The notes beneath the pieces were generated by a model, which made no database searches, was not told the DNA's origin, and was given only the letters and a program-made list of their open reading frames with translations. The position numbers and the translations under genes are program-made. A stretch of DNA of 64,000 bases from assembly GCF_003576375.1 (NCBI RefSeq), contig NZ_QWGE01000002.1, positions 682,001 through 746,000 of the forward strand, in the 5' to 3' direction. Shown here piece after piece: positions 4,593 to 12,110 of this stretch. Each line of letters starts with the position of its first letter. Positions within the stretch are counted from its first letter, which is position 1. The stretch is from Pontibacter oryzae (lineage in GTDB: Bacteria > Bacteroidota > Bacteroidia > Cytophagales > Hymenobacteraceae).

Positions 4593-5906
4593 TTATCTCC
4601 TGTTAAAGTAAAACTTGTCGTAGCCAATAATCAAGTCGGCGCGGGAGCCTGGCGGGCGGTAGTAAATTAAGATATCGTAAGTGTTGTTGGTTTCGAAGTG
4701 GCTTCCTTCAAAGTAGCTATCGTCCGGGGCGTTTGCTGCAGCCTTTAAGGTGTAAAAGTAATTATAGTACCCTTGCTTCAGCAGCATACGGCCAGTATAG
4801 GCACTTATTGAAGGATCAAAGGTCATTTTGGATTCGCTGGTCTGGTTCCAGTTAGTTAATTCGCCTTGAATATATACCTCACCGGGTGCTTTTTCAGAGG
4901 CTTTTAATACGAACTGCACCCAGGCATAATCTCCATTCACGTCCCCGTTTCCGTACTGCCTATTTCCGAAAATACGTTTACCATTTACATCCGGGTCTTG
5001 GCTATAGGCTAACCCGGCACGGCTTTTATCAGGTTGCAAGGTAACACCAACTGGGTTTTCCTGTAAGTTTATACTTGCAATGCCAATGCCGTTGAAGTTT
5101 AGGCTCCGCGAGTCAAAAGCACGAAATTCGCTCAGGCCCTTAAACAACTCTTTTGGCTCGAAAAATACATATTCTAAGCGGCGCTGCGCATCATGCACGT
5201 ACGTTGGCCGGGCTATTTGCTTGGCATTATCCCAACGTAAATTCTGGCGAACCACGGCCTTAACCTCAGCTGCCGGATTTATAATTTCGTAATCGGCGTA
5301 GAATACATTAAACTCTACAGGTTGGCGCGTTTCCCTGCCTTGCGGACCTAGGGCAGCGCCTAATTTACTAGCCACCGTCACAAGTTCCTGGTATACTATC
5401 AATCGCTGCGATAGCAACAGGCCGCCTCCCTCTTCTTGCACTACTATCAGATAATTGCCGCTTAGCTTAACGCGAGGCACTTGAAAACGGTAGTGCACAT
5501 AAGGTACACGCGTATTGATAGAGTTCTGGGCATCAGTTATAAAGAACTCATTAAATTCATTTAGAAATTGCGTATCGCTGAGGGTAGACGGCGCCCAGTT
5601 AGCATCACAGTGAATGAGTTTCGCCACTAAGCGTTGGGGTGTTGCATTTAAACGGTCAAACTCAAGTATGATGGGCTCCGATTGACTAATAGGTACGACA
5701 GGCGCCTCCAGCACCTCTTCCTCGAAACCGGTGGCCACATAAGCCTGCACAGACTGTATGCTAGTATCGTACACGTAATCCTGATAGCGCAGGGCTGTTT
5801 GGGTAGCGCTGTTACTTTGCACCTGCTGCTCAATGGGCACACAGGCAACCGCACCAACTGCCAGCATTGCGCTAAGCAGGTAATGTATAGTTTTGACTTT
5901 AAACAT
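4593..5906 (-). CDS. Type IX secretion plug protein (DUF5103)
   Basis: A 437-residue DUF5103 protein. In Flavobacterium this family supplies the Plug that closes the periplasmic side of the SprA translocon of the type IX secretion system. The N-terminal signal has a lipobox-like AVAC (Cys22), so it is probably lipid-anchored or exported to the periplasm. Family features include a beta-sandwich region with LVAKLIHCDANWAPS and the segment YVHYRFQVPRVKLSGNYLI (about residues 145-163), and a C-terminal domain with GELTNWN and an ending that includes YYRPPGSRADLIIGYD. It stands alone, with no sprA nearby. It fits the T9SS sorting-domain protein found at 35.8 kb. Confidence 0.85.
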   Translation of the reverse strand: MFKVKTIHYLLSAMLAVGAVACVPIEQQVQSNSATQTALRYQDYVYDTSIQSVQAYVATGFEEEVLEAPVVPISQSEPIILEFDRLNATPQRLVAKLIHCDANWAPSTLSDTQFLNEFNEFFITDAQNSINTRVPYVHYRFQVPRVKLSGNYLIVVQEEGGGLLLSQRLIVYQELVTVASKLGAALGPQGRETRQPVEFNVFYADYEIINPAAEVKAVVRQNLRWDNAKQIARPTYVHDAQRRLEYVFFEPKELFKGLSEFRAFDSRSLNFNGIGIASINLQENPVGVTLQPDKSRAGLAYSQDPDVNGKRIFGNRQYGNGDVNGDYAWVQFVLKASEKAPGEVYIQGELTNWNQTSESKMTFDPSISAYTGRMLLKQGYYNYFYTLKAAANAPDDSYFEGSHFETNNTYDILIYYRPPGSRADLIIGYDKFYFNRR

Positions 5907-6620: not shown

Positions 6621-7979
6621 CTAAAAAATGAGCACGAAGGCAGTGCCCTTGCCAAGTTCTGACGTAGCCTGAACACTGCCTCTGTGTAACCGCATAATTT
6701 GGCGCGACAGACTCAGCCCGATGCCCGAGCCCTGTTTTTTAGTAGTGTAAAACGGAATAAATATTTTTGACAGTGCTTCCGGAGTCATGCCTGGCCCGTT
6801 ATCTGTTACTTTTATTGTTACCCGGCTGCGCGCATCAAGAGCAGCCTCAAGGGTAATTCGCCCATCATCCTGCTCCGATACAGCTTCCATGGCATTCTTT
6901 ATAAGGTTGATCAGAACCTGCGCAATCATACTTCTGTCGGCTTCTAACAGTAAGTTTTCGCCGGGCGTTTCTATAGATAGAATAATGTGTTGCGCTGCTA
7001 GTTGTTCGCGCAGCAAGGTCTTGGTTTCCTGTAGCAATTCTGCCACATTAAAGCGGCTCAAATGCGGCATGGTAATAGTGGTCAGACTCCGGAACTCGTT
7101 CACGAACTTTATTAGCCCATCAGAGCGCCTGCTGATGGTTTGAAGGCACTGACCAACATCCTGCAGCTCTTCCCGCAAGAGTGTAATTTCCTCCGCGTCT
7201 GTATCGGTATAACTTGATATTTCCTCTGACGCGCTGGCAGAAAGCGAGGCAATAGGCGTCACGGAGTTCATAATCTCATGCGTCAGCACACGGATTAGCT
7301 TGTTCCAAGCCTCCATCTCATTCTCTTCCAGCTCACTCTGTATGTTCTGCAAAGATGCCAGCCGGATCTGCTCACCAAGCAAAGACATCTCCACAACATG
7401 AACCGATAGGTTTGCCTGGTTACTACTACCCACCCTAACCGGCACCAGCGCTCTGCCCCCGCTATGCAGCTCCATCAAACCGAAAACCAGCTGTGGGCTT
7501 AGCGGTTCCAGCTCCTGCACCTGATTGGTTCGCCCCACCTTCAAAAGCTTTTTGGCAGCATGATTCATCAAAAGTATACGCCCGTCTGGTTTAAAACTGA
7601 TGATGCCAATGCCAATGTGATGAACTATCAGCTCAAAGTATTGCAGGTTTGCTTCCTTTTCAGCGCGTATGCTTCGGAACTTGTCCATGACGCCATTCAG
7701 GCTTTCAGCGAGTGCGCGTTGCGTCTTACCCTCGTTGCTCAGATGAAACTGCTCCGTAAAATCATCATACTTTATGGCGTTTAAAAAGCGTAAGAAAAGT
7801 TTATCGGAGCGATGGAGGTAGCGCATTAGCAGCCATACTTGCAAAACAATGGCTAGGCTAAGCCCTATGATGGTACTCCGCAGCGCTATGCCGAACTCAA
7901 GCCTTGCAAGTATAAAAACACTCGCGCAAAGCAGCAGTATGCGGAGCAGAACCTGCAATTTATAATGCTTAAAGCCCAT
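6621..7979 (-). CDS. Membrane sensor histidine kinase of NtrB type
   Basis: A 452-residue kinase with two transmembrane segments (about residues 9-27 and 34-53) and almost no periplasmic loop, so it probably senses the membrane or an internal signal. A linker is followed by a PAS domain (about 110-215). The HisKA box is VLTHEIMNSVTP with phospho-acceptor His234. The ATPase part shows the N box NLIKNAMEAV, DNGPGMTPE, FIPFYTTKKQGSGIGL. The gene overlaps its response regulator by 11 bases, so translational coupling is likely. Its partner is a sigma-54 activator, and both stand divergent to an ABC-type permease with a sigma-54 promoter, the likely target. Confidence 0.95.
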   Translation of the reverse strand: MGFKHYKLQVLLRILLLCASVFILARLEFGIALRSTIIGLSLAIVLQVWLLMRYLHRSDKLFLRFLNAIKYDDFTEQFHLSNEGKTQRALAESLNGVMDKFRSIRAEKEANLQYFELIVHHIGIGIISFKPDGRILLMNHAAKKLLKVGRTNQVQELEPLSPQLVFGLMELHSGGRALVPVRVGSSNQANLSVHVVEMSLLGEQIRLASLQNIQSELEENEMEAWNKLIRVLTHEIMNSVTPIASLSASASEEISSYTDTDAEEITLLREELQDVGQCLQTISRRSDGLIKFVNEFRSLTTITMPHLSRFNVAELLQETKTLLREQLAAQHIILSIETPGENLLLEADRSMIAQVLINLIKNAMEAVSEQDDGRITLEAALDARSRVTIKVTDNGPGMTPEALSKIFIPFYTTKKQGSGIGLSLSRQIMRLHRGSVQATSELGKGTAFVLIF

Positions 7980-9354
7980 ACTTTTCTAACCTTCGGTAAA
8001 GCGCCCCGCGCGATAGGCCAAGCTCTTTTGCCGCCTTGGATATGTTGCCGTCATGCTTTTGTAACGCCTGTTGTACAGCTTCCCTTTCCAGCTCATCCAG
8101 ATCAAGGCTCTGCGGTTTTTCCAGCGTGTTAGCGACAACCAGCTCATCTTTCAAAAAGAAAAAATCTCCAGGCTGCAGTTCCCGATGGTCGCTCATGATA
8201 GATGCACGCTCCAGCGCATGCTGCAGCTCACGCACATTTCCGGGCCAGCTGTATTTCGTCAGCTTAGCTAAAGCATCTTTACTGAGCCGCTTCAGTGGTT
8301 GTTTATACTTGTTGGCATACACCTTCAGAAAATGAGTCGCGAATAGTGGCAAATCCTCCAGTCGGTCACGAAGTGGGGGGAGTTGCAGCTCTACTGTATT
8401 TATCCGATAAAGTAAATCCTGCCGGAACTCACCCTTGGTAACCATTTCTTTCAGGGGCATATTCGTTGCGCAAATCAGCCGTACATTTACAGGGATGGGC
8501 TTGTTCGTACCCACCCTAATGACCTCCCGGCGCTGTAACACAGTGAGTAATTTAGCCTGCATGGCCGGTGAAAGGTTGCCGATTTCATCCAGAAACAATG
8601 TACCGCCATCGGCAGCCTCTATCCTTCCGATCCTGTCTTCGCGGGCATCCGTAAACGCGCCCTTCTTATGGCCGAACAGCTCACTTTCAAAAAGAGACTC
8701 TGTCAAAGCACCCATGTCCACTGTCACAAAGATTTTCTCTGCCCGCAAAGACCGCTCATGTATAGAGCGCGCTATTACTTCCTTGCCGGTGCCATTTTCG
8801 CCGAGCAGCAGAACATCGGCATCAGTCTTTGCCACCTTATTGATAATATTAAAAAGGTGCCGCATGGTTTTGCTTTCACCTTCAATTATACTTTTGTCAG
8901 GGTTGAGCTGTGAGCTTAAGGTGCGGTTGGCTTCACGTAAACGGCTAACCTCTTGGTATGAGTTTCTGAGCTTTGCAGCTGCAGACAAGGTGGCGAGCAG
9001 TTTCTCGTTTTGCCATGGCTTTAACACAAAATCCGTTGCCCCATCCTTTAGGGCTTTTACAGCCATCTCTACATCACCGTATGCCGTAATCATGACCACA
9101 ACTGCCGAAGGATCATAGTCTAAAATTTCCTTTAGCCAATAAAAGCCCTCCTGCCCACTTGTAATATCATGGCTGAAGTTCATATCCAGAAGTACAAGGT
9201 CAAATTCCTCATTGTTCATCAGGTATGGGATTTTCTTGGGGTTCTTCTCCATCACTACCTCACGGGCATACTTACGAAGCAGCATTTTGGCAGAGAAGAG
9301 TATATCTTCGTTATCGTCGATGACCAGGATGCGCCCCAGGTTTGGTTCTTCCAT
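7969..9354 (-). CDS. Sigma-54-dependent response regulator (NtrC family)
   Basis: A 461-residue activator with a receiver domain (phospho-acceptor Asp57 in LVLLDMNFS), an AAA+ domain with Walker A GENGTGKE and Walker B GGTLFLDEIG, and a C-terminal Fis-type helix-turn-helix (GNISKAAKELGLSRGALYRR). The sigma-54 contact loop is GAFTDA rather than GAFTGA, a common variant. The first gene of a two-gene unit with the histidine kinase. The divergent intergenic region contains two tandem TGTCC-N6-GGACA sites and a -24/-12 promoter, which this protein probably uses to drive the permease at 9702. Confidence 0.95.
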   Translation of the reverse strand: MEEPNLGRILVIDDNEDILFSAKMLLRKYAREVVMEKNPKKIPYLMNNEEFDLVLLDMNFSHDITSGQEGFYWLKEILDYDPSAVVVMITAYGDVEMAVKALKDGATDFVLKPWQNEKLLATLSAAAKLRNSYQEVSRLREANRTLSSQLNPDKSIIEGESKTMRHLFNIINKVAKTDADVLLLGENGTGKEVIARSIHERSLRAEKIFVTVDMGALTESLFESELFGHKKGAFTDAREDRIGRIEAADGGTLFLDEIGNLSPAMQAKLLTVLQRREVIRVGTNKPIPVNVRLICATNMPLKEMVTKGEFRQDLLYRINTVELQLPPLRDRLEDLPLFATHFLKVYANKYKQPLKRLSKDALAKLTKYSWPGNVRELQHALERASIMSDHRELQPGDFFFLKDELVVANTLEKPQSLDLDELEREAVQQALQKHDGNISKAAKELGLSRGALYRRLEKYGL

Positions 9355-9454
9355 AGTTTTGGTTCGTAGAAATTCAGGCTACTGTATAGAAATACAATGC
9401 CAAAGCTTGATTTTCTAATTTAATCGAATTCAGGTGATTTTTAAAATAAGCAGC

Positions 9455-9491
9455 TGTCCGGTGCTGGACAAAAAGTGTCCGGGACTGGACA
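9455..9491 (+). promoter_or_regulatory. Tandem enhancer sites for the sigma-54 activator
   Basis: Two 16-base sites of the form TGTCC-N6-GGACA lie at 9455-9470 and 9476-9491. Both have perfect 5-base arms. Their centres are 21 bases apart, two helical turns, so dimers would sit on one face of the DNA. They lie about 85-110 bases upstream of the predicted start, the usual distance for an enhancer. Binding by the adjacent regulator is inferred from position and form. Confidence 0.75.
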
Positions 9492-9543
9492 GGCATATAA
9501 GGGTAAGACACTAACCACTGCTGTTAAACACACTTTTCCTGGT

Positions 9544-9560
9544 TTGGCACATCGCTTGAA
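9544..9560 (+). promoter_or_regulatory. Sigma-54 -24/-12 promoter of the permease
   Basis: TTGGCAC (9544-9550), 5 bases, then TTGA (9556-9559). Spacing from GG to the -12 G is 12 bases, as in the sigma-54 consensus TGGCAC-N5-TTGC. The -12 dinucleotide is GA rather than GC, the only departure. Predicted start near 9571. A hairpin-forming sequence (AAAGTGT 9560-9566 with ACACTTT 9581-9587, inner GCAG/CTGC) overlaps the start site. Confidence 0.65.
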
Positions 9561-9610
9561 AAGTGTAAAGCAGATACTGCACACTTTACTAACCACGAGA
9601 GTATAAAACC

Positions 9611-9697
9611 ATGAAAAAAATCAGCACTACCCAAAGCCAGTACCTGTTAGCACAGGCAACTTCTTCGCCTCTGTGCCTTTACCTTAATCGCCTGTAA
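9611..9697 (+). CDS. 28-residue leader ORF or lipoprotein-signal remnant
   Basis: An ATG after a purine-rich stretch opens a 28-codon frame (MKKISTTQSQYLLAQ...) that ends 4 bases before the permease ATG. In the next frame the same DNA reads LRLCAFTLIACN, which looks like the hydrophobic core and lipobox of a lipoprotein signal. Joining both by one frame change would give a normal lipoprotein N-terminus. It may be the relic of a deleted upstream gene such as a MacA-like adaptor, a translated leader, or chance. Confidence 0.3.
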   Translation: MKKISTTQSQYLLAQATSSPLCLYLNRL

Positions 9698-9701
9698 CGT
9701 T

Positions 9702-12110
9702 ATGCTTAAACTATACTTCCTGACTGCCTTCCGCTCACTGAGGCGCAACAAGAGCTACAGCATCCTCAACATTGCCGGTCTTGCCCTTGGTATTACGTGT
9801 AGCATTCTACTGTTTTTGGTTATAACTCATGAATTAAGCTACGACAGATTCCATAGCAAAGCCGACCGCATTTACCGTGTAAATACGCACATGAATTTTG
9901 GCGATGGTTTAGATAAAAACCCTGGCACAAGGTATCCGTTGCCAGCGTTGCTTCGCGCCAACGGCCTGCTCGGCTTTGAGGCAATTACACACGTTTCAGC
10001 AGAGTCTGATGCTCAGATAACAATAGGCGGGGACATAAGCGGCACCAAAAAGAACTTTCTGGAGACAGGGTCTATTGTTTTTGCAGAGCCTGAGTTCTTC
10101 GATATTTTTGATTTCGATACGGGCGGCTCAGCTGCACGCCAAAGCCTGGCAAAACCGAACACTGTTGTACTAACACAAAGCCTGGCTGATAAATACTTCC
10201 CGGGGGGCTCCGCTGTGGGCAAAGTATTTAAGTATAACAACTTGTTAACCCTGAAAGTAGGAGCCATTATTCCGGACTTTCCCTCTAATACAGACTTTCC
10301 GTTTATTATGCTCATTTCCTACAGTTCGTTTAAGAACTATACGGATCTAGATCTCTCGACTTATAATGTTCTGTCTAGCAACCACCAGTTGTTTGTGGTT
10401 TTGCCAGAAGGTGCATCTGCTGAGGCCAAAGCGGCTGAGCTTTCCGACTTCTACAACAGAAATAAACCGGATGATAAGCTGGTAAAAGAGACCTTCATGC
10501 TGCAACCTCTCAGCAACCTGCATTACAACGTAGACTATGGGAATTTTGGGAACAGAACGATCTCTAAAGAGATGATCTGGTCAATGATGTTTATCGGGTT
10601 CTTTCTGGTGCTAGTGGCGTGCATCAACTTTATAAACCTGGCAACGGCTCAAGCCGTGAAAAGGGCTAAAGAAGTGGGGGTAAGAAAAGTTCTGGGTAGT
10701 AGCAAGAAGCAGCTAATGGTACAACTCATGGCCGAGACGTTCCTGATCACGCTGTTCGCAACGTTTCTGTCCATTATCCTTGTTGAGCTGAGCTTGCCCT
10801 ACTTAAACGATTTGCTCGAACTGCAAATAGAGTTCCTGATTTTGAAAAACCCGGCGCTACTGCTCTTCCTGGTATCGGAAGTGTTGTTTGTAACATTGCT
10901 GGCGGGTTTATATCCAGCAATTATACTTGCACGCTTTGAGCCATTAACAGCGCTTAAAAGCCGAATCACGACACAGCAAGTGGCAGGCTTTTCACTGAGA
11001 CAGGCGTTGGTGGTGCTGCAGTTTACCATTTGCCAGATTTTGATTATCTGCACGATCCTGGTAAACGATCAGATGGAATACTTTAAGAGTAAGGAATTAG
11101 GTTTTGATAAGAATGCCGTGGTTACGGTGCAACTGCCTAACCAGGCTGGCAAGAAAATACAGCCTTTGCGAGATGTCATGCTCCAAAACCCGGCTATCAT
11201 AAATGTAAGTTTTGCCGGGGCGCCTCCCTCCTCTAATATCACCTGGGGCTCTAATTTCAAGTTCGACAACTCCAGTGAAGACGCTACCTTTCAGGCAAAC
11301 ATGAAACATGCCGATGAGAACTACCTGGAACTGTTCGACATCAAGTTGGCAGCAGGCCGTTCGTATACAAACACCGACTCAGCCGCATTTATCATAAACG
11401 AGACCATGCGCCGTAAACTAGGCATCCCTACTGCCGCAGATGCCTTGGGCAGGACGATTACTATTGGCAATAAAAACTTTAAGGCGCCCATAATTGGTGT
11501 TGTAGAGGACTTTCACCAAAATCCGCTTCATTTGCCCATAGACCCTACCATTATGGTGGTCAACCCGAAAGCCTATATGTTCTTGTCTGCCAAAATTGAC
11601 ATGAGCCGCAAACAGGAGGCGCTGCAACACTTAGAGAAAGTATGGCAAATGGCTTACCCAGACGATGTGTTCAGTTATGAGTTTCTGGATGAGACTATCG
11701 CTAACTTTTACCGGGACGAGGCGCGTCAGAACAAGCTTTTCAAGATATTCTCGTTTATCGCTATCTTTATAGGCTGCCTGGGCTTGTATGGTTTAGTTGC
11801 CTTTATGGCCGCGCAACGTACCAAGGAGGTTGGTATCCGGAAGGTACTGGGAGCTTCTGTGTTTAGCATTGCTATCTTATTCTCTAAAGAGTTCATTAAG
11901 CTTGTACTAATAGCCTTTGTACTTGCAACTCCCATTGCTTACTATATTATCTCGAACTGGCTGGAAGACTTTAGTTATCGTGTAACTATTGGCTACTGGC
12001 CTTTCATACTTTCGGGTGTAGCCACTTTGTTGATTGCGCTCTTAACCATGAGTACAAAAGCTATACAGGCTGCACTAACAAATCCGGTACTATCACTTAA
12101 GACTGAGTAA
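9702..12110 (+). CDS. FtsX/MacB-type ABC transporter permease
   Basis: An 802-residue permease with two MacB-periplasmic-core plus FtsX units. Membrane helices are seen at about residues 21-42, 287-310, 338-360, 380-405, 428-450, then near 685, 730 and 770. Each FtsX half carries the typical RAKEVGVRKVLGSS or RTKEVGIRKVLGAS motif just after a membrane segment. This family transmits ATP energy to the periplasm rather than forming a channel, in lipoprotein sorting, antibiotic or peptide export. No ATPase or adaptor gene is adjacent, so partners are elsewhere. Expression is probably under the divergent NtrC-type system. A terminator follows. Confidence 0.93.
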   Translation: MLKLYFLTAFRSLRRNKSYSILNIAGLALGITCSILLFLVITHELSYDRFHSKADRIYRVNTHMNFGDGLDKNPGTRYPLPALLRANGLLGFEAITHVSAESDAQITIGGDISGTKKNFLETGSIVFAEPEFFDIFDFDTGGSAARQSLAKPNTVVLTQSLADKYFPGGSAVGKVFKYNNLLTLKVGAIIPDFPSNTDFPFIMLISYSSFKNYTDLDLSTYNVLSSNHQLFVVLPEGASAEAKAAELSDFYNRNKPDDKLVKETFMLQPLSNLHYNVDYGNFGNRTISKEMIWSMMFIGFFLVLVACINFINLATAQAVKRAKEVGVRKVLGSSKKQLMVQLMAETFLITLFATFLSIILVELSLPYLNDLLELQIEFLILKNPALLLFLVSEVLFVTLLAGLYPAIILARFEPLTALKSRITTQQVAGFSLRQALVVLQFTICQILIICTILVNDQMEYFKSKELGFDKNAVVTVQLPNQAGKKIQPLRDVMLQNPAIINVSFAGAPPSSNITWGSNFKFDNSSEDATFQANMKHADENYLELFDIKLAAGRSYTNTDSAAFIINETMRRKLGIPTAADALGRTITIGNKNFKAPIIGVVEDFHQNPLHLPIDPTIMVVNPKAYMFLSAKIDMSRKQEALQHLEKVWQMAYPDDVFSYEFLDETIANFYRDEARQNKLFKIFSFIAIFIGCLGLYGLVAFMAAQRTKEVGIRKVLGASVFSIAILFSKEFIKLVLIAFVLATPIAYYIISNWLEDFSYRVTIGYWPFILSGVATLLIALLTMSTKAIQAALTNPVLSLKTE

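Follow-up and report, generated by a model that had tools for sequence, protein, structure and literature searches.

The locus and its genes

The stretch of DNA analysed here (the window, 64,000 nucleotides) comes from Pontibacter oryzae, of the order Cytophagales in the Bacteroidota. It carries a two-component system and a divergently oriented permease gene, separated by a gap of 347 bp (9355–9701). The genes and the features predicted between them are as follows.

6621–7979, minus strand: sensor histidine kinase, 452 aa, with HATPase_c (Pfam PF02518, E 8e-26)
7969–9354, minus strand: NtrC-type response regulator, 461 aa, with receiver (PF00072), sigma-54 AAA+ (PF00158, E 8e-68) and Fis-type HTH (PF02954) domains
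9388–9402, minus strand: second -24-type box, facing the regulator, TGGCAT-TGTAT-TTCT; +1 predicted near 9376, with the regulator ATG 22 bp further on
9455–9470, no strand: predicted regulator site 1, an exact TGTCC-N6-GGACA palindrome, TGTCCGGTGCTGGACA
9476–9491, no strand: predicted regulator site 2, an exact TGTCC-N6-GGACA palindrome, TGTCCGGGACTGGACA
9543–9559, plus strand: predicted sigma-54 promoter facing the permease, TTTGGCAC-ATCGC-TTGA; predicted +1 at 9571
9560–9587, no strand: imperfect inverted repeat ("hairpin"), AAAGTGT (9560–9566) and ACACTTT (9581–9587); shuffle p about 0.02
9702–12110, plus strand: duplicated FtsX/MacB_PCD permease, 802 aa, with Pfam PF12704 and PF02687 in two stretches each

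An earlier note on this DNA had described an NtrC-type system facing an FtsX/MacB permease across a 347-base divergent region, and both the gap length and, by Pfam, the domains bear this out. The kinase and regulator genes overlap by 11 bp. According to hydropathy and Pfam, the kinase has two N-terminal TM helices with a short loop between them, followed by cytosolic domains ending in HATPase_c; there is no periplasmic sensor domain, and the orthologs read have the same topology (hydropathy only). The regulator has the Pfam domain set of an NtrC-type sigma-54 activator (receiver, PF00158 AAA+ and Fis-type HTH) and, as its sigma-54 contact loop, the variant GAFTDA, which is also found in 81 of 81 matches counted among relatives and has been listed as functional, or compatible with activation (PMC4641369). 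Its domains and loop support its prediction as a sigma-54 activator of the NtrC type. Two genes downstream of the kinase, 4593–5906 (minus strand) encodes a Type 9 secretion system plug-domain protein (PF17116).

The permease has about eight TM helices, predicted from hydropathy and arranged as two halves or repeats. It matches MacB weakly in a profile search and is without an ATPase domain in Pfam (ADOP-like type), and no ABC ATPase gene adjoins it at the P. oryzae locus. An envelope or efflux role would fit this protein type. The named species with the regulator at 78–84% identity are Pontibacter, and in all named Pontibacter loci the gene divergent from the regulator is of the duplicated permease type, preceded in some by an ABC ATPase.

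The paired sites

Sites 1 and 2, which the earlier note had reported as two TGTCC-N6-GGACA sites 21 bases apart, are exact at 9455 and 9476, their starts separated by about two helical turns. They are the sole exact matches to this palindrome in the 4,227,908-base genome, for which base composition predicts about 3.8 single exact sites and about 4e-5 exact pairs (spacing 17–28). Their centres lie at about -108 and -87 from the predicted +1 of the permease-side promoter and their 21-bp spacing is conserved, which is the arrangement of an enhancer (at least two activator sites, roughly 80–150 bp upstream of +1, helically phased).

The motif had also been put forward as a means of finding the rest of a regulon, an expectation that the genome scan did not support. 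No second 21-bp pair was found in the genome when one position per half-site was freed and two mismatches were allowed, single sites with at most one mismatch are mostly unpaired, and no other MacB_PCD permease of the genome has the pair together with a -24/-12 box within the stretch scanned upstream of it. With one paired target found in P. oryzae and no further pair, the switch looks local; the search was made by patterns, to which strongly degenerate sites are invisible, so weak further targets are possible.

Two one-mismatch candidates were rejected as targets. The site at C3:354400 is unpaired. The cluster at C3:176858/176884 (L077:6859–6900) coincides in part with a GACAGGTCGCGACCTGTC palindrome that precedes a short transposase-like gene of the RAYT type, and its surroundings show no NtrC system. 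The reversed control pattern ACAGG-N6-CCTGT gave 21 matches in the P. oryzae genome and up to 104 in relatives, and palindromic elements of the GACAGGTCGCGACCTGTC type probably explain these high control counts.

Conservation across Pontibacter

A regulator ortholog (at least 78% identity) is present in 36 of 50 Pontibacter genomes. The 21-bp pair, with at most two mismatches, occurs in exactly those 36 and is absent from the other 14; it adjoins the regulator in 35 of the 36, and in G168 the pair at this threshold sits elsewhere, away from the regulator. This full agreement in presence and absence argues, at the level of sequence, for the assignment of the regulator to these sites that the earlier note had made. 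A base-by-base reading of 30 orthologous loci shows half-sites that hardly change around variable N6 centres, and the pair, its 21-bp spacing and the -24/-12 box are conserved while the intervening bases drift.

Pairs with the 21-bp spacing and one or two mismatches were also seen away from the regulator at G178:C1:1410591, G192:C3:410042 and G168:C1:2540535; these three are possible second targets. Two Pontibacter genomes, G157 and G172, have 43 and 69 exact single sites, far above most, and one pair each. The excess may reflect a repeat family particular to these genomes.

The predicted permease-side promoter and start region

The -24/-12 pattern has 10 matches in the window against 7.25 expected (at most one mismatch), and taken alone is no better than chance; the permease-side box gains its credibility from being conserved in 30 of 30 loci. 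The promoter proposed earlier, TTTGGCAC-N5-TTGA, is present at 9543–9559, and across these Pontibacter loci its TGGCA, T and -12 G are invariant. The base that follows the -12 G is G in 18, C in eight, A in three and T in one; the -12 element reads TTGA in P. oryzae and TTGG in most relatives, the textbook form being TTGC. The distance from box to pair is 53 bp in 23 loci, 52 bp in six and 51 bp in one. With -24 assigned to the second G in TGGCAC, the predicted +1 falls at 9571, where the earlier note had also expected the start.

The hairpin that had been placed at the start site was rejected. The inverted repeat itself is there, but it is unconserved and straddles the predicted start, its left arm lying upstream of +1 and hence outside the predicted RNA. 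Stems at the start region of the 30 loci occur no more often than in shuffled sequence, and the repeat at 9560–9587 is probably incidental. A 28-codon ORF (9611–9697, plus strand; MKKISTTQSQYLLAQATSSPLCLYLNRL*) takes up most of the predicted permease leader, stopping four bases short of the ATG. The leader around it is seemingly shorter in many relatives, and the ORF could be a leader peptide or due to chance.

The regulator-side box

The module does face the permease, as had been proposed, but its reading as one-directional missed a second conserved TGGCA box that faces the regulator. This box reads TGGCA(C/T) followed by A-T-rich sequence, with TGGCA invariant in all 30 Pontibacter loci, and the two boxes are placed near-symmetrically on both sides of the site pair. 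Its distance to the pair is 50–53 bp in 28 of the 30 loci and 174 or 176 bp in two. Inserts of about 120 bp separate pair and box in L057 and L066, and the box is retained beyond them in both, which fits an enhancer that works from afar.

The -12 side of this box is degenerate. When the 30 Pontibacter loci were read for GG-N10-GC, GG was found in every one and the -12 GC in none; positions 13–14 are TA, TT, CT, TC or CG, never GC. Several relatives outside Pontibacter retain GG-N10-G or GG-N10-GC here (e.g. TGGCATTATTTCAGC). The regulator-side box may be a weakened autoregulatory promoter, and its use of sigma-54 is uncertain because the -12 G is absent from all 30 Pontibacter loci.

Related systems in the genome and in other taxa

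The P. oryzae genome has one rpoN and seven clear sigma-54 activators, three of them with GAFTDA, and all three GAFTDA activators adjoin ABC genes of the FtsX/MacB type. The paralogous system C6 lies beside MFP, ATPase and permease genes and has two degenerate sites, paired at 22 bp and conserved in Pontibacter; C5, beside genes for an MFP, TolC, an ATPase and two permeases, has a TGTTC-N6-GAACA site and TGGCAT-N5-TTGG. Both systems combine TGT(T/C/A)C-type sites with predicted TGGCAT-N5-TTGG promoters. Other genera of this family have single TGTCC-N6-GGACA sites near TGGCAY-N5-TTGG boxes, with MFP or ATPase efflux genes downstream.

A different family in the order (L184–L192) has 21-bp TGTCC-N6-GGACA pairs before a gene for a 112-aa PadR protein, which is followed by a MacB_PCD permease, and no clear -24/-12 box was found at these pairs. 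The PadR-linked loci have the same operator and probably a different binding protein. Since the pair can stand beside a PadR gene, the motif alone is no proof of an NtrC regulator, and caution is due when it is used as a search motif among relatives.

Proposed mechanism and alternative explanations

From the observed gene content, sites, spacing, boxes, conservation and co-occurrence with the regulator, we consider it very probable that 9376–9571 works as a two-way sigma-54 control module between divergent genes, serving the permease and the regulator-kinase pair as a local switch. The kinase (6621–7979) would phosphorylate the NtrC-type regulator (7969–9354), two dimers of which would sit on the same face of the DNA, on 9455–9470 and 9476–9491. 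Their oligomerised AAA+ domains would then loop over and remodel the sigma-54 RNA polymerase held at the permease-side promoter, and expression of the duplicated FtsX/MacB-type permease would be turned on. The weaker, -12-degenerate box at 9388–9402 is probably served by these sites as well, which would give autoregulation of the regulator-kinase pair.

It is on this last step that the most serious alternative turns, namely that the pair drives the permease only, the regulator-side box being dead as a sigma-54 promoter and the regulator being expressed from a housekeeping promoter. The loss of the -12 G, with GC never found at positions 13–14 in Pontibacter, is what such a dead promoter would look like. 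However, its TGGCA is invariant in 30 of 30 loci and is kept at 50–53 bp or beyond inserts, and several non-Pontibacter relatives retain the fuller element; we regard control of the permease alone as somewhat unlikely.

Two further explanations concern the palindromes themselves. They could be bound by another protein, for instance a PadR-type repressor, with the NtrC regulator acting elsewhere, and the nearly identical 21-bp pairs that a different family in the order has before PadR and MacB_PCD permease genes give this idea its substance. Yet no PadR gene adjoins the P. oryzae locus, pair and regulator co-occur fully across the genus, and similar sites are found at two paralogous NtrC systems, which makes a different binding protein very improbable. 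That the palindromes and the -24/-12 match arose by chance has in its favour that the latter, by itself, is within chance in the window; this explanation is refuted by the conservation of the pair in 36 Pontibacter genomes, quite apart from the tiny number of exact pairs expected per genome, and its probability is negligible.

Comparison with known systems

The closest parallel in layout is zraP/zraSR of enterobacteria, in which an NtrC-type two-component system is divergent from its main target and both directions are sigma-54 dependent (PMC8249747, PMC4987338). ZraR, which has little more than one target and a link to envelope stress, binds in the shared spacer, its site being listed as not known (PMC8249747, PMC4987338). 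The Pontibacter module shares with it a two-component system divergent from the target, predicted sites in the shared spacer, divergent sigma-54 promoters (predicted in Pontibacter) and few targets. It differs in that its target is a permease, where that of ZraSR is the periplasmic chaperone ZraP, in that its kinase has no periplasmic sensor domain, and in that its regulator scores 348 bits against a ZraR family cut-off of 760, which places it outside that family. The sites resemble those of GlrR/QseF, an NtrC-type response regulator working with sigma-54 through palindromic TGTC...GACA enhancer sites (TGTC-N10-GACA; PMC8745638, PMC4987338). The Pontibacter site, TGTCC-N6-GGACA or TGTC-N8-GACA, is two bases shorter inside, and the regulator scores 284 bits against a GlrR cut-off of 763.

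On the transporter side, the permease aligns with ADOP (TIGR03434) end to end, at about 800 aa and with no ATPase domain in either, but its score of 283 is below the cut-off of 622 bits and so falls short of family membership. In BceRS-BceAB of Firmicutes, a kinase without a dedicated sensing domain reads the activity of the transporter (PMC10314905). The two-TM Pontibacter kinase, judged from hydropathy only, likewise has no extracytoplasmic domain and is encoded beside an FtsX-type permease. In contrast to Bce, the regulator is of the NtrC/sigma-54 type, the permease is duplicated with MacB_PCD domains, and a dedicated ABC ATPase is absent from the P. oryzae locus and present in some relatives. 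A speculative extension, which we think unlikely, is a Bce-like sigma-54 module, in which the kinase senses permease activity and the regulator raises permease and kinase through the two-way enhancer, the operator pair perhaps having been taken up by PadR in the sister family.

A 2025 survey that scored promoters genome-wide predicts that FtsX-like permeases (COG0577) of Bacteroidia are under sigma-54 control (PMC12316311). Promoter type, target class and phylum, as given in the parts of the survey consulted, are all shared with the Pontibacter module, whereas those parts assign no activator or enhancer motif. In open-licence papers we found no named Bacteroidota regulator of this type. This kind of switch is already known; that literature yielded neither the specific regulator and operator nor the two-way layout. 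The module is a well-conserved, ordinary member of a known bacterial switch type. To the permease class predicted from the 2025 promoter scans it adds a specific, genus-wide assignment of activator, sites and promoter, as predicted from genome comparison, and it offers a clean genus-wide motif together with a two-way promoter of which one side is apparently decaying.
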